Assembly (NCBI GenBank): GCA_026390595.1
Contig: JAPLFQ010000021.1
Span: forward strand, 62,001-126,000
Length of the DNA stretch: 64,000 nucleotides
Direction: 5' to 3'
DNA from: Ignavibacteriales bacterium
Lineage (GTDB): Bacteria; Bacteroidota; Ignavibacteria; UBA10030
The position numbers and the translations under genes are program-made. Positions 6,117-36,087 of this stretch are shown piece after piece. The first letter of the stretch is position 1. Each line of letters starts with the position of its first letter. The notes below the pieces were generated by a model. That model did no database searches. It had not been told where the DNA came from and worked only from the letters and a program-made list of their open reading frames with translations.

Positions 6117-6791
6117 ATGAACGAGATCCTTGAATCTCTTACCCGCTGCGTCGAGCGCGGAAAAGTCAACAGCAAATCCCCCTACCCGCCGGATCTCAAG
6201 GGACAGGACGGAGCAGACGAGTTCGCCCGGAAAGCACTCGAAGCGGGACTACCGCCTCAGGAAATTCTTTCGAACGGACTGATCATCGGCATGCAGCGCG
6301 TCGGCGTACGATTCCGGAACAAGGAGATCTTCGTGCCGGATGTTCTGATGGCTGCGAAGGCCATGGCCGCCGCCATGGAACACCTCAAACCCTTCTTCAA
6401 ATCGGATGCGCTGAAGCACAAGGGCACAATCGTTATTGGAACCGTTCTGGGCGATCTCCACGATATCGGTAAGAAGCTCGTGTCGATGGTCATCGAGGGC
6501 TCAGGATGGGAGGTCGTCGATCTCGGGACGGACGTGTCGCCGGAGAAATTCCTCAAAGCAGCCGACGAACACCCGGGCTGCGTGATCGGACTAAGTGCGC
6601 TGCTGACCACGACGATGGTGAACATGGAAACGACGGTCAAGCACGTCAAAGCAAAACACCCGAACATCAAAGTCATTATCGGCGGAGCTCCGGTCACGGA
6701 GGAGTTCGCCCTCAAGATCGGCGCTGACGGGTATTCGTCCGATCCGCAGGGAGCGGTCGAGTTTTTGAACAGCCGGTGCGCGACGAACTAG
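6117..6791 (+). CDS. corrinoid (cobalamin-binding) methyl-carrier protein, MtaC/MetH type
   Basis: This 224-residue protein would carry a methyl group on the cobalt of a corrinoid between two methyltransferases. An N-terminal helical cap domain (about 1-95, GLIIGMQRVGVRFRNKEIFV) precedes a Rossmann-like B12-binding domain with the base-off signature DLHDIG at 113-118 (H115 would be the lower cobalt ligand), a SAL motif at 160-162 and GG at 189-190. Size and order match MtaC, MtbC and the O-demethylase corrinoid proteins. It is the first gene of an operon with a MetH-type reactivation protein and a UroD-like methyltransferase. The ATG follows AGGGAAG. Which methyl donor it serves is not known; a role in demethylating sugars is my inference. 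Confidence 0.92.
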   Translation: MNEILESLTRCVERGKVNSKSPYPPDLKGQDGADEFARKALEAGLPPQEILSNGLIIGMQRVGVRFRNKEIFVPDVLMAAKAMAAAMEHLKPFFKSDALKHKGTIVIGTVLGDLHDIGKKLVSMVIEGSGWEVVDLGTDVSPEKFLKAADEHPGCVIGLSALLTTTMVNMETTVKHVKAKHPNIKVIIGGAPVTEEFALKIGADGYSSDPQGAVEFLNSRCATN

Positions 6792-6793
6792 AA

Positions 6794-7525
6794 ATGCCCG
6801 TGTCGCCAGCAATCGACGTCGCCACATTCACTCCCCCGCTTCGCGACCTGGGAGTGAACAGAAATCTTGTCCTGTCAGATCTGGGATATCGTGACGGTGA
6901 AGCCCCCGAGATGATCGGGGATCTCATCGACGAGATCCTTCCTCTCATCCCGCTCCATATTTCTCTTCAATGCGGATATGGCATTCTTCCCGCCGGGTCG
7001 GTCAGCCTTTCCGATTCGGCAGTTGCGTGCTACGGCGTTGAATTCAACACCGGGCCCATTATCACAAACCAGTTGAAGCGATCCACCTCCGTTGCTCTGT
7101 TCGTCTCCACCACCGGTCCGCGGCTGGAACATTGGTCGGGCGAACTGATGGCTGGAGGAGATATGATGCGGGGATACATCGTCGATGCGATTGCTTCGGA
7201 GTACGTGGAGCAGGCCTCCATCTGGCTGGAGAAGCAGATCGCAGGACACGTGCAATCCCGCGGGTGGAAGATCACCAACAGGTACAGCCCGGGTTACTGC
7301 GACTGGCCTGTCACCGAACAGCACAAACTCTTCTCACTCCTCCCGCCAAAATTCTGCGGTATCACACTCACCGAAAGTGCATTGATGGTGCCTATCAAAT
7401 CGCTGAGCGGCATCATCGGACTTGGACCTGACGTCAAGCGGGGCGCTTTTCAGTGCTCCATCTGCGACCTCAAAGACTGTTTTCGAAGAAGGGAAGAGCC
7501 GGAACCGGCATCGGAGAGAGAATGA
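6794..7525 (+). CDS. stand-alone MetH-type reactivation (activation-region) protein
   Basis: The 243-residue protein corresponds to the C-terminal activation module of cobalamin-dependent methionine synthase, which uses S-adenosylmethionine to re-methylate oxidised cobalamin. The diagnostic part is RYSPGYCDWP (163-172) followed by ITLTESALMVPIKSLSG (190-206), equivalent to the RxxPGY and LTESxxMxPxxSVSG segments of MetH. Thermotoga has a comparable separate activation protein. Unlike the E. coli module it ends with a cysteine cluster, CSICDLKDC (C221, C224, C229), which could bind iron-sulphur or zinc. The start is uncertain: an ATG just after the corrinoid stop was preferred over a GTG at 6776, and neither has a clear Shine-Dalgarno. 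It serves the corrinoid protein encoded immediately upstream. Confidence 0.85.
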   Translation: MPVSPAIDVATFTPPLRDLGVNRNLVLSDLGYRDGEAPEMIGDLIDEILPLIPLHISLQCGYGILPAGSVSLSDSAVACYGVEFNTGPIITNQLKRSTSVALFVSTTGPRLEHWSGELMAGGDMMRGYIVDAIASEYVEQASIWLEKQIAGHVQSRGWKITNRYSPGYCDWPVTEQHKLFSLLPPKFCGITLTESALMVPIKSLSGIIGLGPDVKRGAFQCSICDLKDCFRRREEPEPASERE

Positions 7526-8469
7526 AACCGAACATCGTTGTCGTTGGGAGCTCAAACACCGACCTTGTGGTGAAGCTTCCTCGCCTCCCCGGAAAGGGAG
7601 AAACGGTTATCGGTGGAACATTCTCGCTGGCTGCCGGAGGAAAAGGGGCGAACCAGGCCGTCGCCGCTTCGAGGGCCGGGGGCAGCGTTGCGTTTGTATC
7701 GAAAGTCGGTGACGACCATTTCGGCAGACAAGCTCTCGACGCGTTCAAGAACGACGCTCTCGATACCCGGTTCGTGGGCGTCCATACAACGACCGCATCC
7801 GGGATTGCGCTCATCTTTGTTGACGGGCATGGCGAAAACTGCATCGGCGTGGCGTCCGGTGCAAATAGTGAGTTTCTCCCCGCCGACGTTGAGAAGGCGC
7901 GCGAGCTCATCATATCAGCCGACGTTCTCCTCCTGCAACTCGAGATACCGCTTTCCACAGTAGAAGCTACCATCCGCATCGCGTCTGACGCCGGAGTTCC
8001 CGTTCTGCTCAACCCTGCTCCGGCTTTTCCACTCGAGCCGTCACTGCTTAGACATGTCTCAATCATCACTCCCAATGAAAGCGAAGTCGAGATCCTGACC
8101 GGAATGCGTATTTCTGATGATGCAACCATTGTGGCGGCTTCATTGATCCTCAGGAACATGGGTATTCCTGCCGTTGTCATCACCCTCGGAGCCCGGGGCG
8201 CATACCTTAGTGAAGAATCAGGCGATCAGTTCGTTGCTCCATTCACGGTTGATCCAGTCGATACGACGGCAGCGGGGGATGTCTTCAGCGGCGCTCTTGC
8301 GGTCTCGATTGGTGAAGGGACTGCATTGAGAGATGCTGTTCGCTTCGCAAGTGCAGCGGCCGCCCTCTCGGTGACAAAACTCGGGGCACAACCTTCAGCA
8401 CCTCAGCGGGCGGAAATCGAGACCTTGCTGAATGGTACAAACTCCCGATCAGCATCGTATGCGGGTTGA
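7522..8469 (+). CDS. rbsK: ribokinase (PfkB family sugar kinase)
   Basis: The 315-residue protein is a PfkB-family kinase that transfers phosphate from ATP to the C5 hydroxyl of ribose or a similar sugar. It has the first signature GGKGANQAV (39-47), the NPAP strand (164-167), TPNESE (183-188) and the second signature DTTAAGDVFSGAL (247-259) with catalytic base D253. The ATG overlaps the stop of the reactivation gene (ATGA) and is preceded by GGAGAGAGA, so translation is coupled. A kinase inside a corrinoid operon suggests that the demethylated product is a sugar, but the true substrate could be another pentose or hexose. Confidence 0.88.
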   Translation: MKPNIVVVGSSNTDLVVKLPRLPGKGETVIGGTFSLAAGGKGANQAVAASRAGGSVAFVSKVGDDHFGRQALDAFKNDALDTRFVGVHTTTASGIALIFVDGHGENCIGVASGANSEFLPADVEKARELIISADVLLLQLEIPLSTVEATIRIASDAGVPVLLNPAPAFPLEPSLLRHVSIITPNESEVEILTGMRISDDATIVAASLILRNMGIPAVVITLGARGAYLSEESGDQFVAPFTVDPVDTTAAGDVFSGALAVSIGEGTALRDAVRFASAAAALSVTKLGAQPSAPQRAEIETLLNGTNSRSASYAG

Positions 8470-8522
8470 GACAAGGGAAACAATTGGCTATCTTGGTTTG
8501 AACTATCGACGACAGGAAGAAC

Positions 8523-9065
8523 ATGAAAAGAGATGAAGTGGAACGACTCCGGGCAGAAACCGCCGAGTTTTTGAAGAAGGCCTCGATTACAATCACCGAG
8601 AAGGAACGAGCATCGATTGAAGTGGCAGACTTCGGCCTGAATGACATCAGGAATATCGGGCTGGAGATCGTAGTCTACGAAAACAACGACAGGTATTGTG
8701 CGAAGGAACTGGTCCTTTTTCCCCGGCAGATGTGCCCGCAGCACCGCCATCCGAGAGTTGATCCAGTCAACCCCGGGAAACAAGAGACGTTCCGATGCCG
8801 CTGGGGGGAAGTGTATCTTTACGTTGAAGGGATGGCCACGCCGAACCCGAAGGCCGTCGTGAGCGAAAGACACAAAAAACACTTGTCCGTCTGGCAGGAA
8901 ATAGTCATGCGACCAGGAGACCAGTACACCATCAAATCGGACACGCTTCACTGGTTTCAGGCAGGCGACAACGGAGCGATCGTCGCTGAATTCTCATCAA
9001 CCAACACGGATGAGCTTGACGTGTTTTCCGACCCGAACATTAAAAGGATGCCCGAAATCGAATAG
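8523..9065 (+). CDS. D-lyxose/D-mannose ketol-isomerase (cupin family)
   Basis: The 180-residue cupin resembles the YdaE-type D-lyxose ketol-isomerases, enzymes that interconvert D-lyxose with D-xylulose and, in characterised members, D-mannose with D-fructose. Metal-binding residues are visible in MCPQHRHP (about 76-83), KQETFRCRWG with its glutamate (about 90), and DTLHWFQAG near 140. Length and motif order fit the family. The ATG has an AGGAAG ribosome-binding site. It lies between ribokinase and a UroD-like methyltransferase and would feed mannose released by the alpha-mannosidases of this window into fructose metabolism, which is inference. Confidence 0.8.
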   Translation: MKRDEVERLRAETAEFLKKASITITEKERASIEVADFGLNDIRNIGLEIVVYENNDRYCAKELVLFPRQMCPQHRHPRVDPVNPGKQETFRCRWGEVYLYVEGMATPNPKAVVSERHKKHLSVWQEIVMRPGDQYTIKSDTLHWFQAGDNGAIVAEFSSTNTDELDVFSDPNIKRMPEIE

Positions 9066-9169
9066 TATTCATCCTCAAATACGACTCACACCCGCCTGCC
9101 CCCTGTAACTCCCATGGGCGGCAAGGCAATGAGCAGAAACGCTGCGCTCAGAAGACCCAGGACAACAGC

Positions 9170-10324
9170 TTGACTCCGAAACAGCGATTTATCGCGGCGC
9201 TCACGCGCCAGAAAGCTGACCGGCTTCCGGTCACGACACATCATGTGATGCCGTATTTCCTGAAGAAGTATATGAACGGCATTACAAACGACGAATTCTT
9301 TGACACCATCGGGCTCGACCCGATCCGCTGGCTGATAGCCTACAAGCCGGACGAAGCCAACGGTGAGTTCTACGATCCGATTCATACACCGGGATACCTC
9401 GAGGCTCACAGGATTGTCTCGGACAATTGGCGCATTGAACATGAACCGCTTGCCGATCCTCGTTATGAGACAGTCCGGTACAAGTTCATCACCCCAAAAA
9501 AGACCCTCACAACAGTTCTCCAGAGCAACGACCATACCTCCTGGGTGAGCGAGCGACTGATCAAGGAAAAATCTGATATCGACATCATAGGCGAATTTGC
9601 CGTGAAGCCAACGTGCGATGTGGCGATGGTCAACCGGGAGGCGGACACGTTTGGAGAGCGGGGCATGATACGGGGCTTTGTGAATTCGTTCGACGTGTAT
9701 GGACAACCGGGGTGCTGGCAGGATGCATCGGTTTTGTACGGCATCGAAGATTTGATCATGGCTTCATTCGAAGATCCCGATTGGGTACATGCCTTCATGA
9801 AGGTGATGTTGGAAAGAAAACAAGTGTTCATCCAATCGCTCAAAGGGGCGAAGTACGACGTCATCGAGCTTGGCGGCGGTGATGCGTCTTCAACGGTGAT
9901 TTCTCCCGACATCTTCGACCAATTCGTTGCACCCTATGATGTGCCGTTGATTGACCTCGCCCATGCGGTGGGTCAGCGCGTCGTGTATCATACTTGCGGG
10001 GGAATGATGCCATTCCTCGAACGCCTCGCCGAAATGATGCCGGACGCGATGGAGACGTTCACCCCCTCTTCAATGGGAGGAGACACTCTCCTCGCCGAGG
10101 CCAGGGAACGAATTGGGGACAAAGTATGCATGATTGGAGGGTTCGATCAATTCCATTACTTCAAGGATTGCACTCCCGAGGAGACGCGAAAAGCTGTGAG
10201 GAAGTGCTTCGATGAAGCCGGTCGGGACGGCGGTTACATTCTGTGCCCGTCGGATCACTTTTTCGATGCTGATATGGAACTGCTGAAAGCCTTCGCAGAT
10301 GAAGCGCGGAAATGCACCTATTGA
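9170..10324 (+). CDS. UroD/MtaA-superfamily protein, candidate corrinoid methyltransferase (paralogue 1)
   Basis: The 384-residue protein has the uroporphyrinogen-decarboxylase fold shared by haem-pathway HemE and by the zinc methyltransferases MtaA, MtbA and CmuA. It opens with MTPKQRFIAALTRQKADRLP, typical of the non-HemE branch. A zinc-type H-x-C motif is present at H274-C276 (YHTCGG) with a distal cysteine at C359 (ILCPSD), the arrangement used in MtaA-like enzymes to activate a thiol or methyl acceptor. The start is TTG; no ATG precedes it. Its place as last gene of the corrinoid operon argues for methyl transfer rather than porphyrin decarboxylation. The donor or acceptor is unknown. 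Its stop lies two bases from the end of the opposing GH78 gene. Confidence 0.85.
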   Translation: MTPKQRFIAALTRQKADRLPVTTHHVMPYFLKKYMNGITNDEFFDTIGLDPIRWLIAYKPDEANGEFYDPIHTPGYLEAHRIVSDNWRIEHEPLADPRYETVRYKFITPKKTLTTVLQSNDHTSWVSERLIKEKSDIDIIGEFAVKPTCDVAMVNREADTFGERGMIRGFVNSFDVYGQPGCWQDASVLYGIEDLIMASFEDPDWVHAFMKVMLERKQVFIQSLKGAKYDVIELGGGDASSTVISPDIFDQFVAPYDVPLIDLAHAVGQRVVYHTCGGMMPFLERLAEMMPDAMETFTPSSMGGDTLLAEARERIGDKVCMIGGFDQFHYFKDCTPEETRKAVRKCFDEAGRDGGYILCPSDHFFDADMELLKAFADEARKCTY

Positions 10325-10326
10325 TG

Positions 10327-12996
10327 CTATGTGTGAGTCAGATTTAAGGTCACCCTCTCGCCGGCGGGGAGCTGGTAGCGTACCCGGCCAAACTGCCCCA
10401 TACCCCGCAGACGCTTCAGAGCAACATCCTCACGCTTGTCGATTGCGATCTCCCCTGCTCCTTCCGGCGGAGTCTCGATGATGAGTTGCCTCCCACCGAC
10501 GGCCCCATCCCATTTCACTCGAATCGGTCCACGGACTGTATGAGCGGTAAGATCCATCGAACGGATGTCCGCGCACTGCGGGACGATTTCGTACGTCCGG
10601 TATCCAGGCGTCAGGGGCCGGATGCCGGCGATATTCATGTACAACACGAAAAGGGGAACAACCGCACAGTGGCTCCATTGATCTGTAGAATCTAACCTTG
10701 CTGTCCAGAACTCCTGCAGCGTGTTGTTCAGTCGCACCGAATCCATGGGAGCCCAGCGAGTGCGAAGATCATTGACAATCGCGTCGGCTCGCCCTCCCTT
10801 GGAGAGGGCCCAGAGTCTCCACCCGGCGTTTGCCGGATAGGAGAATCCCATCTCCGGCGGACACGCGGCCAGCATCTCAACTGCGGGCTGCTGTTTTGCC
10901 CCCGGGCATTGATCGAACAAGACCGACGTCGCGAGTGTCCTGTCTGAGAACCGGAGCCCGTTTTCCTTTTCGGACCAGGGAAGATTGTCAACGAAAAGAT
11001 TCCGTTTCTTGTCCCAGAATAGTCGCACGGTCGACTTCAGAAGCTCAGTTCCGAACTCCCTTGCTTCTTCCCCCCAACGCCGATCACCGAACGCATCACA
11101 CAGCGGCGCCAAAGCGTGCAGCGACATCGCTGACGCATAGAGGTTGAAAGAACATTGTTTGTGTTTTTGCTGCTTGAATGCACTGTGATCGATATAGAGC
11201 GATGGAACGCCAAGATTTTCGACCGGGAGCAGCCCATCGGATCCTTTGATGGACCGCAGGTAGTTGAAAAACCGGAGAAGCCGCGGGTACGGTTCCCGCA
11301 CAGATTCGAGGTCTCCGGTGTAGAGATAGTGATGCCAGCAATCGAAGTTGAACCCAACCCCGTGGTCAAGGAGCGGCCCCCAGAAGGTCATCTGCAGCTG
11401 GCGTTCCTGCAGGCGCGCAAGCCGGTCATACGCAGGCCAGCAATCGAGAAAATATCCGTCAATCGTGATTCCCTGACTAAACGTCTCGAGATACCGAGCT
11501 GTCTGTCTTGTTTCTCCGAACGCGTAGTAGATCGCGTGCAGCTGGTGTCCCCCGTCGCCGCTGTACTGCTGGCGCTCGCGTGCCATGCCGTCCACGATGG
11601 TCTCCTGTGCACAATTGTTGAGCGTATTCACCGAAGCATCAAACAGACTCTGCAGTCCGGGTTCAGAGCAAACGATTGCGGGCTGATGCAGCCAGGGAAA
11701 CACACGCCGGCGCAGACCGACGTTCCGGATGACCACATCTCCGGCTACACCCCTGATGTGGAGCTGCATCCAGCGGCAGCTTTCAAAATCGAACGTTTCA
11801 AATTCGTTCACTCCCTTTCGACAGATAAACCTTGTCCACGAGTAGAACTGCGTATTCAGGAGTGCGGGCCCGCCGACCTCGTGGGACTCCTGAACCATCA
11901 GTTCTACGATCGTTCCCTCCGGGGCCTCGATGACAAAGGAAGGCCAGCCAACGATCTGTTCTTCGAATTCAAAAGTCAGTGCAGCGGCGCGGGATCCATC
12001 GAGAGAGACCTTCCATGTACCTGGGGCAACCTGCGCTGCGCTTGAAGCGCGGATCGCGTCGAAGCAGTCGGGAGTCATGTTGTCAAAGTACTCATCCGGC
12101 GTTCGCTTCCAGCGGATCCACAGTGATTCGCTCAGCTGCTTGACCGGGACAAGTTGTTCCGATAGCATCGGAATGCTCCGGCGTCTGAGCTCTGATACGT
12201 CCTTGGTGCCGCGGATCTCCATTGCGTATTCGGGATACGATGAACACCCGCTTGGCTTGTCTGCCGGGCATCTGAGGTTCATCGGCGGCAGCCAGTTCGC
12301 GTCGGTTTTGAAATCCGATTGCAGCCATCCGTAGGGATACAGACGCGCATCGAATTCCTCCTGCAGCGATCGCAGATACCATCGTTTGTACCGGCCGGGT
12401 TTCCAGCTCCATGCAAGGCGCGTGAGCCATGAAGGATCGGATACAACCTTGACGAGGCTTCCGTCCTGCAGTTCTATCTCGAGATTGAACAGAAATCCGG
12501 TCTTGCCAATAGGCCACGTGCCATCACCAAGGCCGAAGTACAGGACTTCTGCCCCGATGACATTTTCTCCTTCCTTCAGACTCGCAGTAAGATCAAGCGG
12601 ATCCGCTTCGACCCACCGAGGATCACATGGCGCAGGCCCCCACTGAATTCGCTTGCCGTTCACGAACAACCGGTAGCGGCTGTCCGCAACAATCCAACCG
12701 GAAGCTCTTTTGACGGGCGCCGCAAGACTGAGCGTACGGCGAAACAGAACCACCGTATTGCACAGGGTTCTTCCCGACGGATACCAAATCCACTCTGCCG
12801 GACTCAGATTGAGGTATCGCGGCGAGGGAAGAGAATTGTCTGGTATGCGCAACGACACGGGCGCAGTCTGCACAGGCTTCTCTTTCTTGCTTTGAGGAGT
12901 GAACGAAAGGAAGGAAAGCCCCACACCGCCGAGGGCTGTCTTCCGGAAGAAATCTCGCCGATTGATATTCTTAGGTGTTCGTTTTCGGGACTTCAT
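10327..12996 (-). CDS. alpha-L-rhamnosidase-like glycoside hydrolase (GH78), Tat-exported
   Basis: The 889-residue protein carries a twin-arginine signal (NRRDFFRKTALGGVGLSFLS), so it is exported folded. An N-terminal beta-sandwich region (about 60-420, with VADSRYRLFVNGKRIQWGPA) precedes an (alpha/alpha)6 barrel. The barrel contains VDGMARERQQYSGDGG, which corresponds to the GH78 motif that carries the acidic catalytic residue, and a closing PLFVLYMNIAGIRPLTPGY. A C-terminal beta domain ends the protein. GH78 enzymes release terminal L-rhamnose; the acid motif is diverged, so another sugar is possible. The ATG has an AAGGGGAT ribosome-binding site; a GTG seven codons upstream is less likely. 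A perfect palindrome lies 26 bases upstream. Confidence 0.8.
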   Translation of the reverse strand: MKSRKRTPKNINRRDFFRKTALGGVGLSFLSFTPQSKKEKPVQTAPVSLRIPDNSLPSPRYLNLSPAEWIWYPSGRTLCNTVVLFRRTLSLAAPVKRASGWIVADSRYRLFVNGKRIQWGPAPCDPRWVEADPLDLTASLKEGENVIGAEVLYFGLGDGTWPIGKTGFLFNLEIELQDGSLVKVVSDPSWLTRLAWSWKPGRYKRWYLRSLQEEFDARLYPYGWLQSDFKTDANWLPPMNLRCPADKPSGCSSYPEYAMEIRGTKDVSELRRRSIPMLSEQLVPVKQLSESLWIRWKRTPDEYFDNMTPDCFDAIRASSAAQVAPGTWKVSLDGSRAAALTFEFEEQIVGWPSFVIEAPEGTIVELMVQESHEVGGPALLNTQFYSWTRFICRKGVNEFETFDFESCRWMQLHIRGVAGDVVIRNVGLRRRVFPWLHQPAIVCSEPGLQSLFDASVNTLNNCAQETIVDGMARERQQYSGDGGHQLHAIYYAFGETRQTARYLETFSQGITIDGYFLDCWPAYDRLARLQERQLQMTFWGPLLDHGVGFNFDCWHHYLYTGDLESVREPYPRLLRFFNYLRSIKGSDGLLPVENLGVPSLYIDHSAFKQQKHKQCSFNLYASAMSLHALAPLCDAFGDRRWGEEAREFGTELLKSTVRLFWDKKRNLFVDNLPWSEKENGLRFSDRTLATSVLFDQCPGAKQQPAVEMLAACPPEMGFSYPANAGWRLWALSKGGRADAIVNDLRTRWAPMDSVRLNNTLQEFWTARLDSTDQWSHCAVVPLFVLYMNIAGIRPLTPGYRTYEIVPQCADIRSMDLTAHTVRGPIRVKWDGAVGGRQLIIETPPEGAGEIAIDKREDVALKRLRGMGQFGRVRYQLPAGERVTLNLTHT

Positions 12997-13021
12997 GCAA
13001 TCCCCTTTCGGTTGCACGGTG

Positions 13022-13039
13022 AGTGTGAAGCTTCACACT
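13022..13039. promoter_or_regulatory. 18-bp perfect palindrome, candidate operator for the GH78 gene
   Basis: AGTGTGAAGCTTCACACT is perfectly self-complementary and lies just upstream of the GH78 ribosome-binding site. Its TGTnA...TnACA half-sites resemble the operators of LacI-family repressors, and a related but imperfect site occurs at the symporter promoter. The window encodes one LacI-family protein. Confidence 0.5.
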
Positions 13040-13072
13040 ACTCGTGACGCTGGTCTTAGGAATTCAGCACAC

Positions 13073-14083
13073 CTACGGTCCAGCATTGAATTCACTCAAT
13101 GCCGCAAAGAAAGCATCGATGTTTTCGAGAGGGACGTGGGGCGGAACATCGCAGCCTGATGAGAGAACGAAATTGGAAAAACCCTTCGTGGCCTGCAACA
13201 ATTGCAGCGTTGCCGAGCGGACTGATTTTGGTGATCCCGATTTGAAAACAGCAACGGGATCGATATTGCCAAATACGAGTGTGTCTCCGGGAATCTGCTC
13301 GAGTGCTTTCACGATGTTGCAGCGATTACCGAAATGCAGTCCTCCCGCACCGGTCGAGAGCATCGATGAAACGAGCGTGTCCGTATCCCCACAATTGTGC
13401 AGGATCACCAGAAAGCTATCGTCCTGCACGGCTTCCACAATTCTCTTGATGAAATTCGACGAGAACTCCGTGCAGTGGTCAGCAGAGAGCACACCGGCTA
13501 CTGGCTCCGCGATCAGCACTCCGTTGGCCCCGGCCGCCTTGAATGCCTTCACATATGCCATCAGAAACTGAGTGCACTTTTCGAGCAAAGCAAGAACACT
13601 GTCGGGTTCCGTGAGAATCGCCGTCATCACTTCCGTGACATCGAAGAGACGCCCTGCGAGCGAAAAAGGCCCGATGCAACCGGCAAAGACCGGCCTGTCC
13701 GAAATCGAATTCGCCGCAAGCCTTGATGCTTCAAGCCATTGACCAACCCGCGCTTGTGTAAGACCGGGGATTGCCAGCTGCTCGATCGAGTCGGCGTCAT
13801 GGACACATCGCGCCGTCACCGAAGGAACTTCGTCGTCGGCAAACCGGATGGTCGCGCCAAACGCCTCGGCTTCGACGGAGAGGTCCATGATCATCGTCGA
13901 AGCACCGGTCGGATACTGTTGAGCGACGGCCTGCACCGCTTCAAAATGAAACCTGGGATTCGTTACAGTTGCCAGGACAGTGTTGCCCCGCAGCGCCATG
14001 CCAGGATGCGTCATCACGGGCACAGCCAGGCGTTTCTTCGAATCCAGGACCGATTGTTTCCACTTCATCATATCACGGTGCAT
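13073..14083 (-). CDS. MtaA/MtbA-like corrinoid methyltransferase (UroD superfamily, paralogue 2)
   Basis: The 336-residue protein is the most MtaA-like of the three UroD-fold paralogues. It has FAGCIGPFSLAGRLFD (about 133-148), typical of methylcobamide methyltransferases, a zinc motif H229-N-C231 (ILHNCGD), the segment FGNIDP (about 271-276) and a distal C311 in LSSGCDVPPHVPLENIDAF. In MtaA and MtbA these residues bind the zinc that activates the thiol acceptor. I chose the ATG following GGAG over a GTG two codons earlier. It lies between GH3 and GH78 genes on the same strand, so a link to glycan breakdown is likely. Whether it transfers methyl to or from the corrinoid protein at 6.1 kb is inference. 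Confidence 0.85.
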   Translation of the reverse strand: MHRDMMKWKQSVLDSKKRLAVPVMTHPGMALRGNTVLATVTNPRFHFEAVQAVAQQYPTGASTMIMDLSVEAEAFGATIRFADDEVPSVTARCVHDADSIEQLAIPGLTQARVGQWLEASRLAANSISDRPVFAGCIGPFSLAGRLFDVTEVMTAILTEPDSVLALLEKCTQFLMAYVKAFKAAGANGVLIAEPVAGVLSADHCTEFSSNFIKRIVEAVQDDSFLVILHNCGDTDTLVSSMLSTGAGGLHFGNRCNIVKALEQIPGDTLVFGNIDPVAVFKSGSPKSVRSATLQLLQATKGFSNFVLSSGCDVPPHVPLENIDAFFAALSEFNAGP

Positions 14084-14143
14084 TTCCACTCCAGAGCGCT
14101 ATGTTGTTGCTGATTCACCCCCCACACCCAACTCCACCTGGTC

Positions 14144-16786
14144 TTATTTCACTACTTCAATCTCTGATTTCACGCGGATATCATCTGACGAGCTTCCCAC
14201 CATAACCTCGATAGTACCGGGCTCGACGACAAACTTCAAAGCATCGTCCAGGAATCCCATTTCCTCTTTGGAAAGAGCGAACACGATGGCTTTCTTTTCT
14301 CCGGGGGCGAGGGAGATTCGCTTGAAACCTCTCAGCTCCTTGACGGGCCGCGTGACGCTCGCAACAGGATCGTGCAAATACAGTTGGACAACCTCGTCCC
14401 CTGCCCGACGTCCGGTGTTCTCAACATCAACGGAGATCTGAACTTTCCCGTCCGGGTTTATTCGCTGAGGGGACACCTGCAAATTTGAGTACTTGAATTT
14501 TGTATAGCTTAGCCCAAAACCGAATGGAAATAGCGGTTTGCCGCTGAGATCTGTGTAGTCATCTCCCCGCCCCGTGGGTTTGTGATTGTAGTACAAGGGA
14601 ACCTGGCCGACGGCCTGGGGAAATGTGATGGGCAACTTGCCGCCGGGATTGAAGTCACCGAAGAGCACATCCGCCACTGCATTGCCCCCTTCTTCACCCG
14701 GATACCACACCTCGACGATTGCTGAAACCTTGTTCACCCATTTCCTCATCGTGACAGCGCTGCCATTGATCAGGACGACAATGGTCGGTGTCTTCGTCTC
14801 GACCACTGCTTGAATCAGCTGCTCCTGCTCGCCCGGAAGATCGAGATTTGATCGGTCGTATCCCTCCCCCTCGATAATTCCAACGGCGACAATGGCCACG
14901 TCGGATTTCTTCGCCGCGTCTGCGGCCGCCTGTATGCGCGGATCAACGGGACGCTTCATGTCCCACACGAAGCTCGCATAGGCCCATCCTTCGTTCTCAT
15001 AGTATTCGATCTTGACATCATACTCTCGACCTGCCTCGAGCTTCATCGTGACGACGTCAAGCGTGGCACCGCGGTCGAACCAGCTGTCGATGAGCAGTTT
15101 CCCGTCTATGTACAAACGGACTCCGTCATCCGAGCTGAACCCCACACTGTAGGTTCCCGATTCCTTCGGAATCAGCTTGCCGGTCCAACGCGCCGAGAAA
15201 TGGTCAGGAGCGATGTTCGGCTCAGGGGATCCCATCGCCCACTCGAAGTTGATGACCTTGTCGGTTCGGACGAGTGCAGGCGGCCCCTGCAGATCTTTGT
15301 TCTTGAAGTACTCGCCGCGCAGACCGTGCTCACCCGGCTTGGCATCTGCAGGCACTAGAAATTCCGATGATATCGGCGGCAGCGCCGTGAAGCCGACATC
15401 GCAACCCTTCTCGTACACTATCTTCGCCGCGGGAACCTTGCTCTTGATTCCATCGAGCAGCGTCACGACTTTTGTGCCGAAACCGCTGTACCCGCCAAGC
15501 CTGGCCGCCTCAGCTTCGGGACCGATCACCGCGATGGATTTGACCTCTTTCTTCAATGGAAGCGTATTCTCTTCGTTCCTCAGAAGCACGATTGCCTTGC
15601 GGGCGGCGTCCCGCGCAAGCGCCCGATGGTCGGGCGAATCATTTACTGAAGCGGCGCTCTCGGGATCGACGTACGGATTCTCAAATAACCCAAGCCGAAA
15701 CTTTGCGCGCAGGACGTTCCGCGCGGCCTCGTCGATAGCTTTCATCGAAGCGGATCCGTCCCTGGCAGCCTGAAGGAGAGGCTCGCCATAAAAATAGATG
15801 TCCGGCAATTCCACGTCGAGCCCCGCCTCCACAGCTTTCGCGGCCCCTTCTTTCGGCGTAGCGGCTACGTGGTGCTTATCCATAATGCCAGATACAGAGC
15901 CGTAATCGGACACGACAAATCCTTTGAATCCCCATTCTTTCCTCAGAACCTCCGTGAGGAGCCATTTGCTTGACGTGCTCGGGATGCCATCGATCGCATT
16001 ATAAGCGGACATGACAGATGAGGCATTTGCCTCCTGGAACGCAGCTTTGAACGGGGGGAAATACACTTCCCTCAACTCCCGCTCCGAGAAGTGAATCGGA
16101 TAACTGTCTCTCCCGCCGTCGCCGACATTTGCCACGAAGTGTTTGGGGGTCGTGATAACACCTGCATCTTCAATGTTCTTGCAGAATTCGATAGCGAGGC
16201 GGGATTGCAGATAGGGATCTTCACCGTACGTTTCTTCGACTCGTCCCCAGCGGACGTCTCTGGCAATATTGATGACGGGGGAGAGCACCTGACGGATACC
16301 GCGGCTGCGCGTTTCTTTCGCAATTGCAGTCGCAACATTCGCCATCAGATCGGTATCCCAACTCGCCGCCAGACCGATCGCCTGCGGGAAACTCGTCGCA
16401 CCATTGGCAATGAGGCCGTGCAGCGCTTCGTCATGAATAATGATCGGGATTCCCAGCCTCGTTTTCTCGCGTGCCATCTTCTGGTACTCGTTTGCCTTCT
16501 CAGCCGCCTCCTTCGCAACAGACCATCGGAGCAGCGGCCCGATGCCTCCGAGTCCGTTCACCGTGAAGTTCTTGCCCCACTCGATCTTCTTCAAGGTAGA
16601 TTGAAGCTGTGCGACTCTCTCCTCAACAGTCATCCTGGAGAGAAGATCTGTCACGCGGTCTTCGATGGCCACTTTCGGGTCGAGGTATTTTGCCCTTGTC
16701 TTCTGTTGCTGCCCGCGCGCAAAAGGGACTGCCAGGGCGAGAGCACAGCCCAGTAGAAGATATCGAACGATGACCTTCGTTTTCAT
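14144..16786 (-). CDS. GH3 beta-glycosidase with inserted PA14 domain, exported
   Basis: The 880-residue protein is a retaining glycoside hydrolase of family 3, likely a beta-glucosidase or beta-xylosidase. It has a Sec signal peptide (1-25), an N-terminal TIM-barrel domain with KHFVAN (215-220) and the nucleophile D294 in FKGFVVSDYGSV, the second alpha/beta domain interrupted by a PA14 domain (about 490-635, SGTYSVGFSSDDGVRLYIDG), and a C-terminal fibronectin-like domain (ENTGRRAGDEVVQLYLHD). The PA14 insertion is common in GH3 enzymes and shapes substrate binding. It lies between two UroD-superfamily genes on the same strand. The exact sugar specificity is not evident. Confidence 0.92.
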   Translation of the reverse strand: MKTKVIVRYLLLGCALALAVPFARGQQQKTRAKYLDPKVAIEDRVTDLLSRMTVEERVAQLQSTLKKIEWGKNFTVNGLGGIGPLLRWSVAKEAAEKANEYQKMAREKTRLGIPIIIHDEALHGLIANGATSFPQAIGLAASWDTDLMANVATAIAKETRSRGIRQVLSPVINIARDVRWGRVEETYGEDPYLQSRLAIEFCKNIEDAGVITTPKHFVANVGDGGRDSYPIHFSERELREVYFPPFKAAFQEANASSVMSAYNAIDGIPSTSSKWLLTEVLRKEWGFKGFVVSDYGSVSGIMDKHHVAATPKEGAAKAVEAGLDVELPDIYFYGEPLLQAARDGSASMKAIDEAARNVLRAKFRLGLFENPYVDPESAASVNDSPDHRALARDAARKAIVLLRNEENTLPLKKEVKSIAVIGPEAEAARLGGYSGFGTKVVTLLDGIKSKVPAAKIVYEKGCDVGFTALPPISSEFLVPADAKPGEHGLRGEYFKNKDLQGPPALVRTDKVINFEWAMGSPEPNIAPDHFSARWTGKLIPKESGTYSVGFSSDDGVRLYIDGKLLIDSWFDRGATLDVVTMKLEAGREYDVKIEYYENEGWAYASFVWDMKRPVDPRIQAAADAAKKSDVAIVAVGIIEGEGYDRSNLDLPGEQEQLIQAVVETKTPTIVVLINGSAVTMRKWVNKVSAIVEVWYPGEEGGNAVADVLFGDFNPGGKLPITFPQAVGQVPLYYNHKPTGRGDDYTDLSGKPLFPFGFGLSYTKFKYSNLQVSPQRINPDGKVQISVDVENTGRRAGDEVVQLYLHDPVASVTRPVKELRGFKRISLAPGEKKAIVFALSKEEMGFLDDALKFVVEPGTIEVMVGSSSDDIRVKSEIEVVK

Positions 16787-16867
16787 TACTCAACCCTCCT
16801 TCGGGAAGCTCAAGAAATACCATTCAGTCGTGTATTTCACTTCGGATTCGCTCTCTGATCATGGAAC

Positions 16868-17890
16868 TCACCCGCCGAATTCACGGGACGCCTCAAGGAG
16901 AGCCAGATAATTATCATAGAGAACATATTCCGGGATGCTGTTCCCTGAGCCAATGCAATAGCCACCGTTCTGTCCAACCTTTTCGACATTTGCTTTCACG
17001 ATTCTCCGAATATCCTCACGCGTGCCCCTGGCAAGTGTATCCACATCGACATTGCCGAGCAGGCACAATCTGTCACCGTAGCGCAGCTTGACTTCAGCGA
17101 TCTCCATGGCCTTGGGTTCGATCGGGTGAATCGCATCGACCCCGCAGCCGATGATGTCCTCGAAAACATCCCAGAGCACTCCATCGGTGTGGTAGAGCAA
17201 TGGTTTGTTCGAGTTACGGGCGAGTTCTCCGATACGCATGAGCCATGGGAAGAAATATGAATGGAGCGTATCGGGAGACACTAAGAGCCCCTCTGTGAAG
17301 GCTATATCGTCGCTGTACCAGATGGCATCGACCGCATCCGACTGGGCAAAATACTCGAACATGCTTATGACGAGCTCGCCGATTCTGTTGTTGAGCGCCT
17401 TGACGAGATCCGGATTCTCGAAAATAGCGAGCGAGAATGATTCAAATCCCATCATCTCCCAGGTCATCGTGAAGATGTCACCGTACTGAGCGATCACGCC
17501 CATGCCTTCGGGCAGCAGGGAGCGCACTTGTTCGAACTTTTTGTAGTCGAAGTCGGCTTTCGAGGGCCACGTGTATTTCTCGAGATCCCCGAAATCGGCG
17601 ATGACCCCCTTGTTCTCTGACGCCCATTTCCGAAACAGCGTCCCATCTTGATTGTACGTGAGATGCTCCGAGAGACCAATCTTCGCAGGATTGAAATCCG
17701 CCACAGGCTGGATCTTCACGTAGTCGTATCCGGCTGTTCGCCAGAAATCGATGTCGTCCTGCAGCGACTTTACTTCCCTTCCCAGAAAACGCTCTTTGAT
17801 TTTCGGATGCACCCCAAGTTCGATCATGGGGATGTGCGTCCCTTTGCCCCTCCGTAATGTCTTGATCAGTTGCGTGATGTCTGGTCTCAT
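16868..17890 (-). CDS. UroD-superfamily protein lacking the zinc cysteine (paralogue 3)
   Basis: The 340-residue protein has the UroD fold pattern (DAIWYSDDIAFTEGLLVSP at about 188-206; GDRLCLLGNVDVDTLARG) but differs from the other two paralogues where zinc is bound. The H-x-C motif is HTD (H234-T-D236 in LYHTDGVLW), and the distal segment reads YCIGSGNSIPEY. It may therefore use another metal ligand set, or act on a substrate rather than on a thiol acceptor. The gene starts 7 bases after the stop of the cytosolic GH38 mannosidase, so the two are one operon. This tight link suggests a substrate related to mannose or a methylated derivative, which is inference. Confidence 0.8.
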   Translation of the reverse strand: MRPDITQLIKTLRRGKGTHIPMIELGVHPKIKERFLGREVKSLQDDIDFWRTAGYDYVKIQPVADFNPAKIGLSEHLTYNQDGTLFRKWASENKGVIADFGDLEKYTWPSKADFDYKKFEQVRSLLPEGMGVIAQYGDIFTMTWEMMGFESFSLAIFENPDLVKALNNRIGELVISMFEYFAQSDAVDAIWYSDDIAFTEGLLVSPDTLHSYFFPWLMRIGELARNSNKPLLYHTDGVLWDVFEDIIGCGVDAIHPIEPKAMEIAEVKLRYGDRLCLLGNVDVDTLARGTREDIRRIVKANVEKVGQNGGYCIGSGNSIPEYVLYDNYLALLEASREFGG

Positions 17891-17897
17891 GAACTCC

Positions 17898-20309
17898 CTA
17901 ACGTTCGCTGATCAATCCGACTTCCCGACACTTACCGGATTTCTCAAATCGGATCGTTTTGATTTCAAATGGTTTGAATAAAAGAGGCGGGATTGGCTTC
18001 TTCGTCCCAATCGAGAGCCTTGCTTTCGAGGCAAGCCCCACCGTCTCCTGCATCCGGAGAATGAGCGCCTTCCCATCTTCGGATTGCTTCGAGGCAAGCA
18101 GTCGGACATGCCGGGGCTGAAGTCGCACGAACTCGTCCGACGGACTCATCGCCGATCCAATCGGAAGATGAGAATACACAATTGGCGGCGCACTCAGCCA
18201 GTCGGCCAGGCCGGAAAGTGATGTGAGGATCTCCTCCGCATTTCCCGCCGTCACAAGCAGCCGGACTTCGTGAACCCCCTGATCCATGTATTTTCTTGCC
18301 GTCGGCCCGCTGATTTTGAATCCCTGATCGTGACAGTACGCAGCGCTGCGCAGGACCGAGAGCCGGATCTCACCGTTATAGAAATCAAATCCATGCTGGC
18401 CGCTGTTGACGATTGCCAATGCAGTCTTTTGTCCCCGGATGCTGCCTTCAAGCATACACCAGCGACCGTGAACATGTTCTTCGCCATCGGCAGGCCTGAG
18501 GATTGCACCTCCGGGAACTTCGCAATAGATCGCTTCATTCCTGAACGCGGTAGGAATCGAGAGCTTGAGCCGCTTGGCCGACTCTGCCCAGTTGATCCTG
18601 AGCAGGAATTCCACGACCGGCCAGGATGAGTACGCAATCATCCGCATCTCAATTGAGCTGCGAGCATACTGAAAAACCGATTGTGTGATGGTTCGAATCG
18701 GGCCTTTCTCCAGGACCACATGCTTGTCAGGTCTTGCCTGGAACAGACCTGCAACCTCCCGATAGCACCATCGATCGGCTCCCCACGAATCTCCGTCATC
18801 TTCCACCACAATCGGCTGGAGCAATGGTCCGGACAGACACTCTCTCCCTCCTCCGGCGTCAAGGCTTGTGATCAATCCTTTCCGCGGATCCAATGTATGG
18901 CTGAGCAATGCGGGAGCATTCTTGTCAATCTTCCTGCCTTCGTGAATTCGCAGCTCATACCTTGCGGCACCCACCTGCGGCAGACCTGCCATGAACGAAA
19001 TCCTCTTGCGCCAGTTGAAAGGCATGAGGGACTCAGGTTGTTCTTCCTGGCAGGGGATTTCCTCACCATCGAGCGAGTGGAGACGAAGGTGCCAATCACC
19101 GGTCCACCGCGGGCGGAGATCGATCATGCACTCCAGCTCAATCGGGACGAATGCAGTCGCAGTGTTTGTGTTCCAGACTGAAACCGGAATGTACAGCTTG
19201 CGGTGTTTCCCGGCATTGAATGCGCTGACTGCCGAGAGCCGCAGGCGGCGTACACTCTCCGAGATCTTTCCATATTGATCCAACGCGTCCAGCTCGGCCG
19301 TTTCGACGCCCGAACCGGGCAGGATGTCGTGAAAGTCATTAAACAAATGATCGGCCCACACTTCTCCGAGATCTTTCACTGGATATCGATCCTTTGCCAG
19401 CCACCATGCCCAGGAACAGAGAGCTTCCCCCTGCACGATGTCGCCAAGGCTGCGTTGAGCTCGACGCTTCACACGCGAGAGCGAGGTATAGCAGCCTGTA
19501 AACACGCGTTGAAGATCGCCCTGGAAGAGAGGAGCCGATGCAGCGTGTTTCCTGAGTGCCATGTAGAGATTTTCAGTCGTACTGTGAACGATCCTGACCC
19601 GTCGTTCCTTTTTCATGAACGCGTCGATCTGTTCGAGCGCTTCACGACTTGCACCTCCTCCATGGTTGCCGATTCCCCAGAAGACGGGGACATCGCGATT
19701 CATCTTCAGGGCAGCCTCAACACCCCCGCGGAGTTTTTCTTCGATGTTGTCACGCTCCGAGTGGTAATACCCGACTGAGATTCGATGAGTGAGGATTTCT
19801 GTTCCATCGACACCGCGCCATCGATAGAGATCCGCGGGGAGCTTCAGGTCGGGATGCTGCGGGCGCATGTGGATATACATCTTGTACCCGGCCTGTCGGA
19901 GAATCTGCGGGAGCCCGCCGCTATGTCCGAATGAATCGAAATTATAAGCCACCAACGGTTCGGCGCCAAAATGCTCTCGGAAGAATTTCCGTCCGACAAG
20001 AATCTGCCTTATCAGGGATTCAATACCGGGGATATTGACGTCCGGCTGCAGATACCATCCTCCGCTGATGCACCATCGTTTCGCCTTTACGAGCTTCTGG
20101 ATCTGCCTGAAAAGTGCTGGATCGTATCGCTGCACCCAACGATAGAGCACTGCCTCATTATGGTTGAAGACAAGGTCTTTGTGAGAGTGCAGAAGTTCGA
20201 CGGTATTGCCGAATGTCGCAATCGCTTCGGCACATCCCTCTTCCCACCTCCACTGCCACACAGGATCGAGATGTGCGTTACAAATGAGATGAACGGTAGG
20301 CTTGCCCAT
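17898..20309 (-). CDS. GH38 alpha-mannosidase, cytoplasmic
   Basis: The 803-residue protein is a zinc-dependent retaining alpha-mannosidase of family 38. Zinc ligands are seen in CNAHLDPVWQWRWEEG (H13, D15), the nucleophile in AYNFDSFGHSGG (D125), and a further ligand histidine in FNDFHDILPGSG. C-terminal beta domains follow. There is no signal peptide with the chosen ATG, so it acts on imported oligosaccharides. Upstream in-frame codons would only add a polar tail. It follows the homocysteine methyltransferase by 54 bases and is 7 bases ahead of a UroD-like gene. A second, secreted GH38-like enzyme lies near the right end of the window. Confidence 0.9.
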   Translation of the reverse strand: MGKPTVHLICNAHLDPVWQWRWEEGCAEAIATFGNTVELLHSHKDLVFNHNEAVLYRWVQRYDPALFRQIQKLVKAKRWCISGGWYLQPDVNIPGIESLIRQILVGRKFFREHFGAEPLVAYNFDSFGHSGGLPQILRQAGYKMYIHMRPQHPDLKLPADLYRWRGVDGTEILTHRISVGYYHSERDNIEEKLRGGVEAALKMNRDVPVFWGIGNHGGGASREALEQIDAFMKKERRVRIVHSTTENLYMALRKHAASAPLFQGDLQRVFTGCYTSLSRVKRRAQRSLGDIVQGEALCSWAWWLAKDRYPVKDLGEVWADHLFNDFHDILPGSGVETAELDALDQYGKISESVRRLRLSAVSAFNAGKHRKLYIPVSVWNTNTATAFVPIELECMIDLRPRWTGDWHLRLHSLDGEEIPCQEEQPESLMPFNWRKRISFMAGLPQVGAARYELRIHEGRKIDKNAPALLSHTLDPRKGLITSLDAGGGRECLSGPLLQPIVVEDDGDSWGADRWCYREVAGLFQARPDKHVVLEKGPIRTITQSVFQYARSSIEMRMIAYSSWPVVEFLLRINWAESAKRLKLSIPTAFRNEAIYCEVPGGAILRPADGEEHVHGRWCMLEGSIRGQKTALAIVNSGQHGFDFYNGEIRLSVLRSAAYCHDQGFKISGPTARKYMDQGVHEVRLLVTAGNAEEILTSLSGLADWLSAPPIVYSHLPIGSAMSPSDEFVRLQPRHVRLLASKQSEDGKALILRMQETVGLASKARLSIGTKKPIPPLLFKPFEIKTIRFEKSGKCREVGLISER

Positions 20310-20363
20310 ACGGGTCTCTGGTTTCTCCTGCGGATGAGTGTTCCGGGACGACAACGCCTGATG

Positions 20364-21239
20364 CTATTTGCCCGAAAGCGTTCGCTTGAGTAGACTGATA
20401 AACGCCGGACTAGTACCGCAGCATCCGCCGATAAAGTCCGCACCGGCCGCCACGACTTCTGATGCGTGCGCTGCAAAATGGGCAGGATCGATATTGTAGA
20501 CAACCTTTCCCTCGATCACCTCTGGCAAACCGGCGTTTGGCTTGATCCAGACAGGGCGGTCTGTTGCCGCACGGAGGCGCTTCGTAACAGTCAGAATGAA
20601 CTCGATGCCCATGCCGCAGTTCGCGCCGATGACATCCGCTCCCTCGTTGTGCAACTCATGGGCCGCTTCTTCGGGCGTTGTCCCCATCATCGTACGATCG
20701 AATTCCTTCCCCGAATCATACACCATGGACACCACCACCGGCAACCCCGTTTTTCGCGCAGCTTTGAGAGCGATCTTCGCTTCATCGAGTTCGCTGATGG
20801 TCTCGATAACTATTCCTTGTGCGCCCCCTTCGGCCAGCGCCATCGCCTGCTCTTCGAACGCGTCGCTCAGTTCTTTCTCTGCAATTTCGCCGGTGAAGTA
20901 GAGTTTCCCTGTAGGGCCGATCGACCCGAACACAAACGCTTTGTTCGCGGCCGCCTTGCGTGAAATCTCCGCCCCAGCGCGATTAATCGCCGCCGCTTTG
21001 TCTGACAAACCGTGGCGTTCGAGCATGATCCGGCTCGCGCCGAAGGTATTGGTCAGTATGATCCGGCTTCCGGCATCGACGTACGCTGTTGCGACCTTCT
21101 CGATTGCAGAAGGGTTTTCGAGGTTCCATAGATCGGGACAGGCGCCTGCCGCGAGGCCCAGACTTTGGATCTGCGTTCCCCACGCACCATCAGTGATGAT
21201 AGGTTGTTCGGTGAGAAGCTTCGTAAGAAAGGCGTTCAT
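20364..21239 (-). CDS. homocysteine S-methyltransferase, MetH N-terminal-domain type
   Basis: The 291-residue protein is the homocysteine-binding barrel of methionine synthase as a separate polypeptide. It begins with ITDGAWGTQIQSLGL and DLWNLENP, and keeps the three zinc cysteines: C208 in GANCGMG and C273-C274 in GGCCGTSP. Their numbering is almost the same as in the Thermotoga MetH barrel. It would transfer a methyl group from the corrinoid protein to homocysteine, giving methionine. The pterin-binding and cobalamin domains of MetH are absent here, but cobalamin and reactivation proteins are encoded at 6.1-7.5 kb. The ATG is preceded by GGGAG. It sits between the LacI regulator and the GH38 mannosidase, an unusual setting for methionine synthesis. 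Confidence 0.9.
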   Translation of the reverse strand: MNAFLTKLLTEQPIITDGAWGTQIQSLGLAAGACPDLWNLENPSAIEKVATAYVDAGSRIILTNTFGASRIMLERHGLSDKAAAINRAGAEISRKAAANKAFVFGSIGPTGKLYFTGEIAEKELSDAFEEQAMALAEGGAQGIVIETISELDEAKIALKAARKTGLPVVVSMVYDSGKEFDRTMMGTTPEEAAHELHNEGADVIGANCGMGIEFILTVTKRLRAATDRPVWIKPNAGLPEVIEGKVVYNIDPAHFAAHASEVVAAGADFIGGCCGTSPAFISLLKRTLSGK

Positions 21240-25294: not shown

Positions 25295-25419
25295 ATCGAT
25301 TCCCGTTCGTCCGTCTTTCCGGTCAGAGCATTCAGAACACGATGAGGGATACACCTGATGAGTTCAACGGAGGGCTTCAGTAAACCCTCTCCTCCACAAT
25401 GGTCAACATCGTGAGGCAC

Positions 25420-33741: not shown

Positions 33742-33754
33742 GAGAGTCCGGCTC

Positions 33755-36043: not shown

Positions 36044-36087
36044 TGGAGGAACGGAATAGTGAATGTGATCGGGAGAAAGAGAATTGG

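Follow-up and report, generated by a model that had tools for sequence, protein, structure and literature searches.

We analysed a 64,000-nt stretch of an Ignavibacteriales genome (contig JAPLFQ010000021.1 of assembly GCA_026390595.1, positions 62,001-126,000; hereafter the window, with coordinates counted from its first letter). The window encodes a stand-alone corrinoid carrier, a stand-alone MetH-type reactivation protein (the reactivator), a homocysteine S-methyltransferase barrel (HCY) and three proteins of the uroporphyrinogen decarboxylase (UroD) fold, together with glycoside hydrolases (GH families). Their context, here and in other genomes, makes it probable that they belong to a system for corrinoid-dependent O-demethylation of methylated sugars, from which methyl groups leave as methionine or, at other loci, as methyl-folate. 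The best supported substrate overall is 4-O-methyl-glucuronate, through a UroD encoded outside the window; the sequence-only reading of this DNA had named methylated mannose, rhamnose, fucose or galactose instead.

In the proposed mechanism, the carrier, the reactivator and HCY would form a common hub of corrinoid methyl transfer, and UroD-fold proteins, some encoded in the window and many elsewhere beside glycoside hydrolases or sugar isomerases, would act as methyltransferase I. Each UroD would bind an O-methylated sugar freed by local hydrolases and pass its methyl group to Co(I) on the carrier, and HCY would then use methyl-Co(III) to methylate homocysteine, yielding methionine. Oxidised cobalt would be restored by the MetH-type protein using S-adenosylmethionine and an electron donor, and the demethylated sugar would enter ordinary catabolism. 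We infer all of these reactions, and that the hub serves its UroDs in trans, from observed proteins, motifs, folds, linkage, sugar-gene context and the class-level co-occurrence of one UroD clade (HND) with GH115. The six window proteins, whose identities in the sequence-only reading were borne out by Pfam, are as follows.

6117-6791, plus strand: stand-alone corrinoid carrier, putative methyl shuttle (Pfam B12-binding_2 and B12-binding)
6794-7525, plus strand: stand-alone MetH-type reactivation protein (Met_synt_B12, 38 bits, profile positions 121-253 of 273)
9170-10324, plus strand: UroD1, UroD-fold putative methyl-sugar:corrinoid methyltransferase (URO-D, 77 bits; motif HTC..(C/S)PSDH)
13073-14083, minus strand: UroD2, MtaA-like, with a His-Cys...Cys (thiol-type) metal-site pattern (URO-D, 193 bits)
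16868-17890, minus strand: UroD3, UroD-fold putative O-methyltransferase (URO-D, 79 bits; H-[TS]-D, ligand positions without Cys)
20364-21239, minus strand: HCY, homocysteine S-methyltransferase barrel, putative methyl-acceptor side (S-methyl_trans, 235 bits)

The carrier motif D-x-H-x-x-G was invariant in 21 out of 21 aligned sequences, including the window copy, and the carrier profile matched the corrinoid proteins 1y80, 7xcn and 3ezx as well as MetH. Among PDB chains, the reactivator profile matched the Thermotoga maritima reactivation protein 1j6r (E 7e-21) and, weakly, Escherichia coli MetH 1msk (E 0.002), whose R-x-x-P-G-Y falls within the alignment; this fold suggests reactivation driven by S-adenosylmethionine. 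Reactivator cysteines C169, C221, C224 and C229 were invariant in 21 aligned sequences; the invariant C-terminal CxxCx4C lies outside the part that aligns with 1j6r and 1msk. HCY has no pterin domain by Pfam, its profile matched T. maritima MetH 1q7m, and its NC and GGCC, a pattern that binds zinc in MetH, were invariant in 11 aligned sequences. Features of three-component corrinoid systems were thus found: a UroD-like TIM-barrel methyltransferase I near a corrinoid protein (from URO-D matches, MtaA-like fold and adjacency in many loci) and, by sequence only, a methyltransferase II (HCY) and a reductive activator (the reactivator). A CobW-type GTPase, a possible metal or cobalamin loading factor, was encoded in or near carrier-HCY-reactivator runs at eight loci (L135, L136, L137, L138, L162, L204, L069 and L147).

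We searched 395 genomes of the phylum. The reactivator was present in 25, of which 24 served as the base rate (G009, with a match inside a 1235-aa frame, was left out of the tally). Orthologues of UroD3 occurred in 11 genomes, 10 of which had the reactivator (Fisher p 9e-13), and orthologues of UroD1 in six, five of which had it (Fisher p 3e-6). Conserved co-occurrence in related genomes, which the sequence-only reading had set beforehand as a check on itself, therefore exists. In a scan of a collection of named genomes, at least 574 stretches coded for a relative; the best 80 came from Bacteroidetes and Ignavibacteria-like metagenome-assembled genomes (MAGs), Bacteroidales, Cytophagales, Calditrichota, KSB1, Hydrogenedentota, Opitutaceae, Spirochaetales and others. 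The closest among the matches listed, Bacteroidetes MAG B4_bin.17 (L127), had the same gene order as the window, with identities of 93% for the carrier, 64% for the reactivator, 67% for the kinase, 77% for the isomerase, 81% for UroD1, 77% for GH78 and 78% for GH3, except that no UroD2 was detected between GH78 and GH3.

Our survey comprised 97 distinct loci: 20 found in the phylum search, the 80 best scan matches and the window itself, after removal of four duplicates; L093-L095, with weak reactivator matches, lay outside the 101-locus survey. All survey loci were found through the reactivator, so its presence there is by construction. The carrier occurred at 86 loci, a UroD of the three clusters at 50, HCY at 40, a methyl-tetrahydrofolate:corrinoid methyltransferase (pterin-type methyltransferase II, pterin MT2) at 25, and both of the last two at none. 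Of these 25 loci, 20 also held MTHFR, and direct tblastn detected no pterin methyltransferase in the 40 HCY loci, the whole window included. Because some loci carry HCY and others the pterin enzyme, there are likely two methyl exits, homocysteine and folate. Storage as methionine, as originally proposed, thus fits the 40 loci with HCY but not the 25 with the pterin enzyme in its place. Strict mutual exclusion of the two was rejected, as both occur at L221 and L222, two loci fetched later. A UroD lay within the carrier-HCY-reactivator run at several loci (for example, L068, L070, L135, L137, L162 and L204). Such linkage, with the co-occurrence counts for UroD3, UroD1 and HND/GH115, led us to reject chance neighbourhood.

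The same data bear on whether the carrier, reactivator and HCY are pieces of a split methionine synthase using methyl-tetrahydrofolate and a pterin protein from elsewhere, with the UroDs as unrelated passengers. All three do resemble MetH domains, pterin MT2 replaces HCY or, at L221 and L222, accompanies it, and contig C5 of the window's genome carries pterin MT2, MTHFR and a carrier together. Against this, no pterin gene was found in the window or the other 39 HCY survey loci; UroD3, UroD1 and HND follow the set from family to family; and UroDs sit inside the run itself. The genome (4.77 Mb, 36 contigs) also encodes a complete MetH at C19, a single 1203-aa frame that spans HCY, B12 and activation domains. 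The sequence-only reading had asked whether a complete MetH elsewhere uses the window's parts: one was found, but it is self-contained in one frame and therefore does not need them. With this frame and no pterin match in the window, a plain split MetH was rejected, and we regard the wider explanation as quite unlikely. At C23, a 648-aa frame with an HCY domain and an MTHFR match resembles an HCY-MTHFR fusion.

The case for sugar O-demethylation is clearest for the HND clade. These UroDs have HNDAPC and SCGGGMPP where UroD2 has His-Cys...Cys, and grouped as 14 rows on one branch (support 100/100), the copy on contig C9 of the window's genome included (C10a, duplicate rows and survey-cluster UroDs shorter than 300 aa were left out of the tree). 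We named unlabelled neighbour clusters by Pfam and NCBIfam, using one representative each. They comprised GH115, GH43, GH10, SusD, GH3, the mannonate dehydratase UxuA and sugar transporters, with a xylose isomerase above the family cut-off and a xylulokinase-like kinase below it. An assignment of the Bacteroidales neighbours as rhamnose isomerase and rhamnulokinase was rejected in favour of these last two. The neighbour families are consistent with the use of glucuronoxylan; according to abstract listings, (4-O-methyl-)glucuronic acid is freed from xylan by GH115 alpha-glucuronidases. Gene orders at five HND loci were:

L072: GH115-GH43-carrier-HCY-reactivator-UroD(HND)-UroD-UxuA-SDR-XylB-XylA
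L156: GPH-GH115-GH10-carrier-HCY-reactivator-UroD(HND)-UroD-MFS-UxuA-SDR
L219: GH115-GH43-carrier-HCY-UroD(HND)-GH88-UroD-UxuA-SDR
L218: GH10-GH115-UroD(HND)-XylB
L223: GH43-SDR-GH10-GH10-UroD(HND)-GH88-MFS-UxuA

In the window's own genome, the order at L085 was GH115-GH43-SDR-UroD(HND)-GH88-MFS. By survey clusters, GH115, GH10 or UxuA occurred at 7 out of 13 HND loci and 4 out of 84 others (p 3e-5), and a further reference search added GH10 at HND loci L131, L152 and L196. HND proteins were present in 8 of the 395 genomes (61-79% identical), and HND or its sister in 11 (threshold E 1e-60); the sister proteins of G228, G120 and G200 were 33-35% identical and retained HNDA, with SVGG in place of SCGG. 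GH115 was found in 54 out of 395 genomes, including 10 of the 11 with HND or sister; the other, G377, had UxuA. In the window's class, all 10 GH115 genomes had HND or sister, compared with 0 out of 44 GH115 genomes outside the class at the threshold used. The class-level Fisher value of 2e-11 assumes 72 genomes in the class, a number not confirmed, and we do not rely on it. A carrier lay in the fetched stretch (20 kb or less) around the HND-or-sister UroD in 7 of the 11 genomes; in G228 and G120, the UroD was followed directly by carrier, HCY, MTHFR and pterin MT2. For the other four genomes, we assumed sharing of the hub in trans. Taken together, 4-O-methyl-D-glucuronate is probably the substrate of the HND clade.

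Feruloyl groups occur in xylan, and HND loci are xylan loci, so the UroDs might instead demethylate lignin-type aromatic methyl ethers during lignocellulose breakdown. UroD-fold O-demethylases acting on methoxylated aromatics do exist (MtvB, OdmB and VdmB; PMC13222342). However, the neighbours are genes of uronate and sugar catabolism (UxuA, SDR, GH88, XylA, XylB and RhaA), no aromatic ring-cleavage family was present among the scanned neighbours (a selection of all neighbours), and fucosidase and rhamnosidase genes accompany UroDs elsewhere without a lignin link. We therefore consider the aromatic explanation unlikely.

To place the window UroDs, we compared metal-ligand positions, leaving out survey-cluster proteins shorter than 300 aa. 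UroD2 had His-Cys-Cys, UroD3 H-[TS]-D and the HND clade H-N-D, and UroD1 was intermediate. In this superfamily, S-methyltransferases have His-Cys-Cys, and O-methyltransferases swap Cys for Asp or Glu or lose ligands (PMC10418091). Judged by these residues, UroD3 and HND fit the O-methyltransferase type and UroD2 the S type. UroD2 may thus not be a sugar demethylase, because its pattern is that of thiol methyltransferases. UroD2 aligned with MtaA 4ay7 (E 1e-20) and CdmB 9rui (E 2e-6), and the UroD1 profile matched MtaA 4ay7 (E 4e-5). A PDB sequence search gave no match for UroD3, but a fold search did: its model (pLDDT 79.5, from an alignment of 8 sequences) matched MtaA 4ay7/4ay8 best, at TM 0.69-0.74. 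The HND model (pLDDT 79.3, 10 sequences) matched MtaA and UroD structures at TM about 0.7. MtaA ranked first for UroD3 and 21st, behind UroD entries, for HND.

Ligand patterns also enter a third explanation, that the substrates are methyl-sulfur, methyl-selenium or methanol compounds, as for mlp clusters, with sugar genes present by chance. UroD2 and C5a show His-Cys-Cys, and at C4 an MtaB-type methanol methyltransferase adjoins a UroD and a carrier. Yet UroD3 and HND have no Cys-Cys pattern, GH115 is closely associated, and, HCY apart, no sulfur-metabolism family appeared among the scanned neighbours, which makes this explanation very unlikely.

Of the 20 URO-D matches in the genome, 17 lie outside the window, which looks like a shared hub. 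Its reactivator is the only stand-alone copy in the genome. No carrier or reactivator match was found in the 20 kb examined at each of L078-L082 and L084-L090 (tblastn E 1e-8), which is why we favour a hub-and-spoke arrangement. Carbohydrate genes directly flanked non-hub UroDs at 9 out of 28 positions, compared with 0 out of 20 for random open reading frames of the same genome (p 0.004). This tally covered 16 of the 17 non-hub UroDs (L087 was left out), with paired genes sharing flanks; tblastn gave the names of RbsC (L078) and the L077 carrier, and Pfam those of the others.

Several spokes suggest further substrates. On the minus strand of L079 (C20, 1865-13540), one run comprised a RACo-type activator, an unscanned gene, GH78, UroD, L-rhamnose isomerase, an unscanned gene, a gene without a Pfam match and a second UroD. 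UroDs adjoin GH29 at L081 and L086. For a methyl-rhamnose substrate of the GH78/RhaA spoke and a methyl-fucose substrate of the GH29 spokes, we put the chances as even in each case. A second UroD clade (H[ST]CG, FN[TA]VHN; eight rows, support 100/100: L170, L194, L202, L162, L137, L140, L068 and the genome's own C21 copy at L081, beside GH29) is a candidate methyl-fucose enzyme. At L078, the order was two binding proteins, ABC genes, UroD and UroD; at L089, a solute-binding protein adjoins a UroD; and at L082, one UroD adjoins a frame with GH2 domains. That frame (L082:13298-17110, 1271 aa) also has a thymidylate-synthase-like stretch at residues 128-253 and could be a fusion or have a wrongly assigned start.

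Two loci of the genome combine other parts. L077 (C4:25500-45499) encodes, at 8195-12275, PfkB, a UroD without the His site, a carrier and an MtaB-like methanol methyltransferase (51% identical to that of L205), a row that makes methanol use in the lineage possible. L083 (C5) encodes, at 7110-10113, pterin MT2, a split MTHFR and a carrier, without a reactivator, and would be a second methyl exit within this genome.

Activation may also vary. No Ram/RACE activator was found in the window cluster, and the genome's sole RACo match was at C20, outside the window. The window's genome has both reactivator and RACo, G051 and G188 have the reactivator but gave no match to RACo, and G014, G228 and G120 have such UroDs and RACo without a stand-alone reactivator. 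The two activators may be interchangeable. G014, with UroD1, UroD3 and HND, seemed to contradict the linkage to the reactivator; its RACo and carrier lie about 3 kb apart, which partly explains this. At L094 (G097) and L095 (G200), RACo has as its direct neighbour a protein that weakly resembles the reactivator (28-33%) and could be a subunit working with RACo instead of replacing it.

A number of points weigh against sugar demethylation through a shared hub. Gene context is not chemistry, UroD2 has a thiol-type site, and the metal pattern is weak evidence, because CdmB and the Moorella O-demethylase function without zinc (PMC13222342), which is thus not obligatory. HND loci L151, L157 and L206 had no xylan hydrolase among the references searched, and, as 44 GH115 genomes were found without the clade, a genome can have GH115 and do without the pathway. 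Genomes G000, G014, G200 and G259, among them the window's own, had no carrier in the fetched stretch. UroDs were seen at only 2 of the 25 loci with pterin MT2, and the use of RACo instead in G014, G228 and G120 means that the reactivator is not obligatory. The Fisher tests count related genomes more than once, and the 28 flanks were scored by eye and not blind. Both UroDs of L080, one of L082, the second of L079 and those of L084, L088 and L090 have no directly adjoining carbohydrate gene. Even so, the core of the sequence-only reading, in which UroDs would strip sugar methyls, the carrier would move them and HCY would store them, is well supported by conserved gene context; its account of the hub, the exits, the substrate and UroD2 needs correction.

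The remaining window genes, named by Pfam and NCBIfam matches as were those above, form two convergent runs with the hub, meeting at 10324/10327. The plus-strand run reads carrier, reactivator, PfkB-type kinase, lyxose-isomerase-like cupin and UroD1; the reactivator gene starts 2 nt after the carrier gene, and the kinase gene overlaps its 3' end. The minus-strand run, starting at a LacI regulator, reads HCY, GH38, UroD3, GH3, UroD2 and GH78. Earlier identities for the ribokinase, lyxose isomerase, GH78, GH3 and GH38 were upheld, GH78 being divergent.

7522-8469, plus strand: PfkB/ribokinase-type sugar kinase (start codon picked by eye; scanned as frame 7453-8469)
8523-9065, plus strand: D-lyxose-isomerase-like cupin (PF07385)
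10327-13017, minus strand: GH78-like alpha-L-rhamnosidase, divergent (catalytic-domain match to positions 6-140 of 339)
14144-16786, minus strand: GH3 with PA14 domain (Pfam)
17898-20354, minus strand: GH38 alpha-mannosidase family (Pfam)
21320-22486, minus strand: LacI-family regulator, upstream of the minus-strand run (Pfam)
30754-34044, downstream: GH92 (PDB matches to GH92 alpha-mannosidases)
33755-36193, downstream: GH20

UroD1 orthologues were 67-82% identical, and UroD1 occurred together with the cupin at 6 of the 9 distinct survey loci that have UroD1; the two adjoin in G014. O-methyl-mannose or a similar sugar is a tentative and rather doubtful substrate for UroD1. That the window acts on O-methyl-mannose of a glycoprotein glycan is a guess drawn from the lyxose-isomerase link, GH38, GH92 and GH20. 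Window positions 22496-25354 encode a 952-aa protein with a C-terminal FGE-sulfatase (SUMF1-like) domain and a long N-terminal part without assignment. Elsewhere in the genome, pyruvate:ferredoxin oxidoreductase (L241:3286-6894) and a glycyl-radical PFL-like enzyme (L089:11104-13350) hint at anaerobic or facultative life.

The architecture is of a known kind. Aryl-ether O-demethylases of acetogens (MtvABC, Odm and Vdm) and CdmBCA likewise combine a UroD-fold methyltransferase I, a separate corrinoid protein and a methyltransferase II, and in CdmB-type systems Co(I) attacks the methyl group (PMC13222342). Here, by contrast, the context is sugar catabolism, the acceptor is HCY at 40 out of 97 loci and the hub activator is MetH-type rather than RACo; the sequence comparison with those enzymes ran through PDB chains only (UroD2 to CdmB 9rui). 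Type 1 mlp clusters (Kountz and Balskus, PMC10418091) also hold several UroD-fold proteins, a corrinoid protein and an activator, often with no folate methyltransferase. They differ in having His-Cys-Cys sites (except several Mlps1), Ram/RACE and accompanying sulfur or selenium genes; by the His-Cys-Cys criterion, UroD2 alone fits, and UroD1 and UroD3 differ. The words "sugar" and "glycoside" were not found when the text of PMC10418091 was searched. MetH and its T. maritima counterparts 1j6r (reactivation) and 1q7m (HCY-pterin) share the HCY barrel, carrier fold and reactivation fold with the window set, which is unlike them in having no pterin domain, three separate genes and putative UroD methyl donors.

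P450 demethylation of 6-O-methyl-galactose in porphyran degradation likewise removes a monosaccharide methyl ether within a polysaccharide locus, and is the only described route for taking a methyl ether off a sugar that our search of open-licence literature turned up (PMC10033563). That route is oxidative and yields formaldehyde (PMC10033563); the proposed route would be oxygen-free and keep the methyl group. Corrinoid demethylation of sugars was not found among the matches listed from open-licence PMC literature, which is weak evidence of absence because the search covered only open-licence papers and top matches. As far as these searches reach, the sugar context, the HCY acceptor module and a MetH-type activator in such a system are undescribed.

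Many glycans of algae and microbes are decorated with methylated rhamnose, fucose and mannose. The data lean towards a general network for oxygen-free sugar O-demethylation in Ignavibacteria-like bacteria, Bacteroidales, Calditrichota and other groups, with one hub, a MetH-type activator, two exits and a UroD family in which every member would be specific for a single methylated sugar, for instance 4-O-methyl-glucuronate, methyl-rhamnose or methyl-fucose. Side groups of 4-O-methyl-glucuronic acid are abundant in hardwood xylan (PMC11636049), and the HND clade, if correctly assigned, would close a gap in how anaerobes use this acid; with 4-O-methyl-glucuronate, this clade is a directly testable enzyme. 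More broadly, a corrinoid route would explain the use of methylated sugars without O2, would make plant and algal glycans a methyl source for methionine or the folate pool, and would assign functions to genes now filed as uroporphyrinogen decarboxylase.

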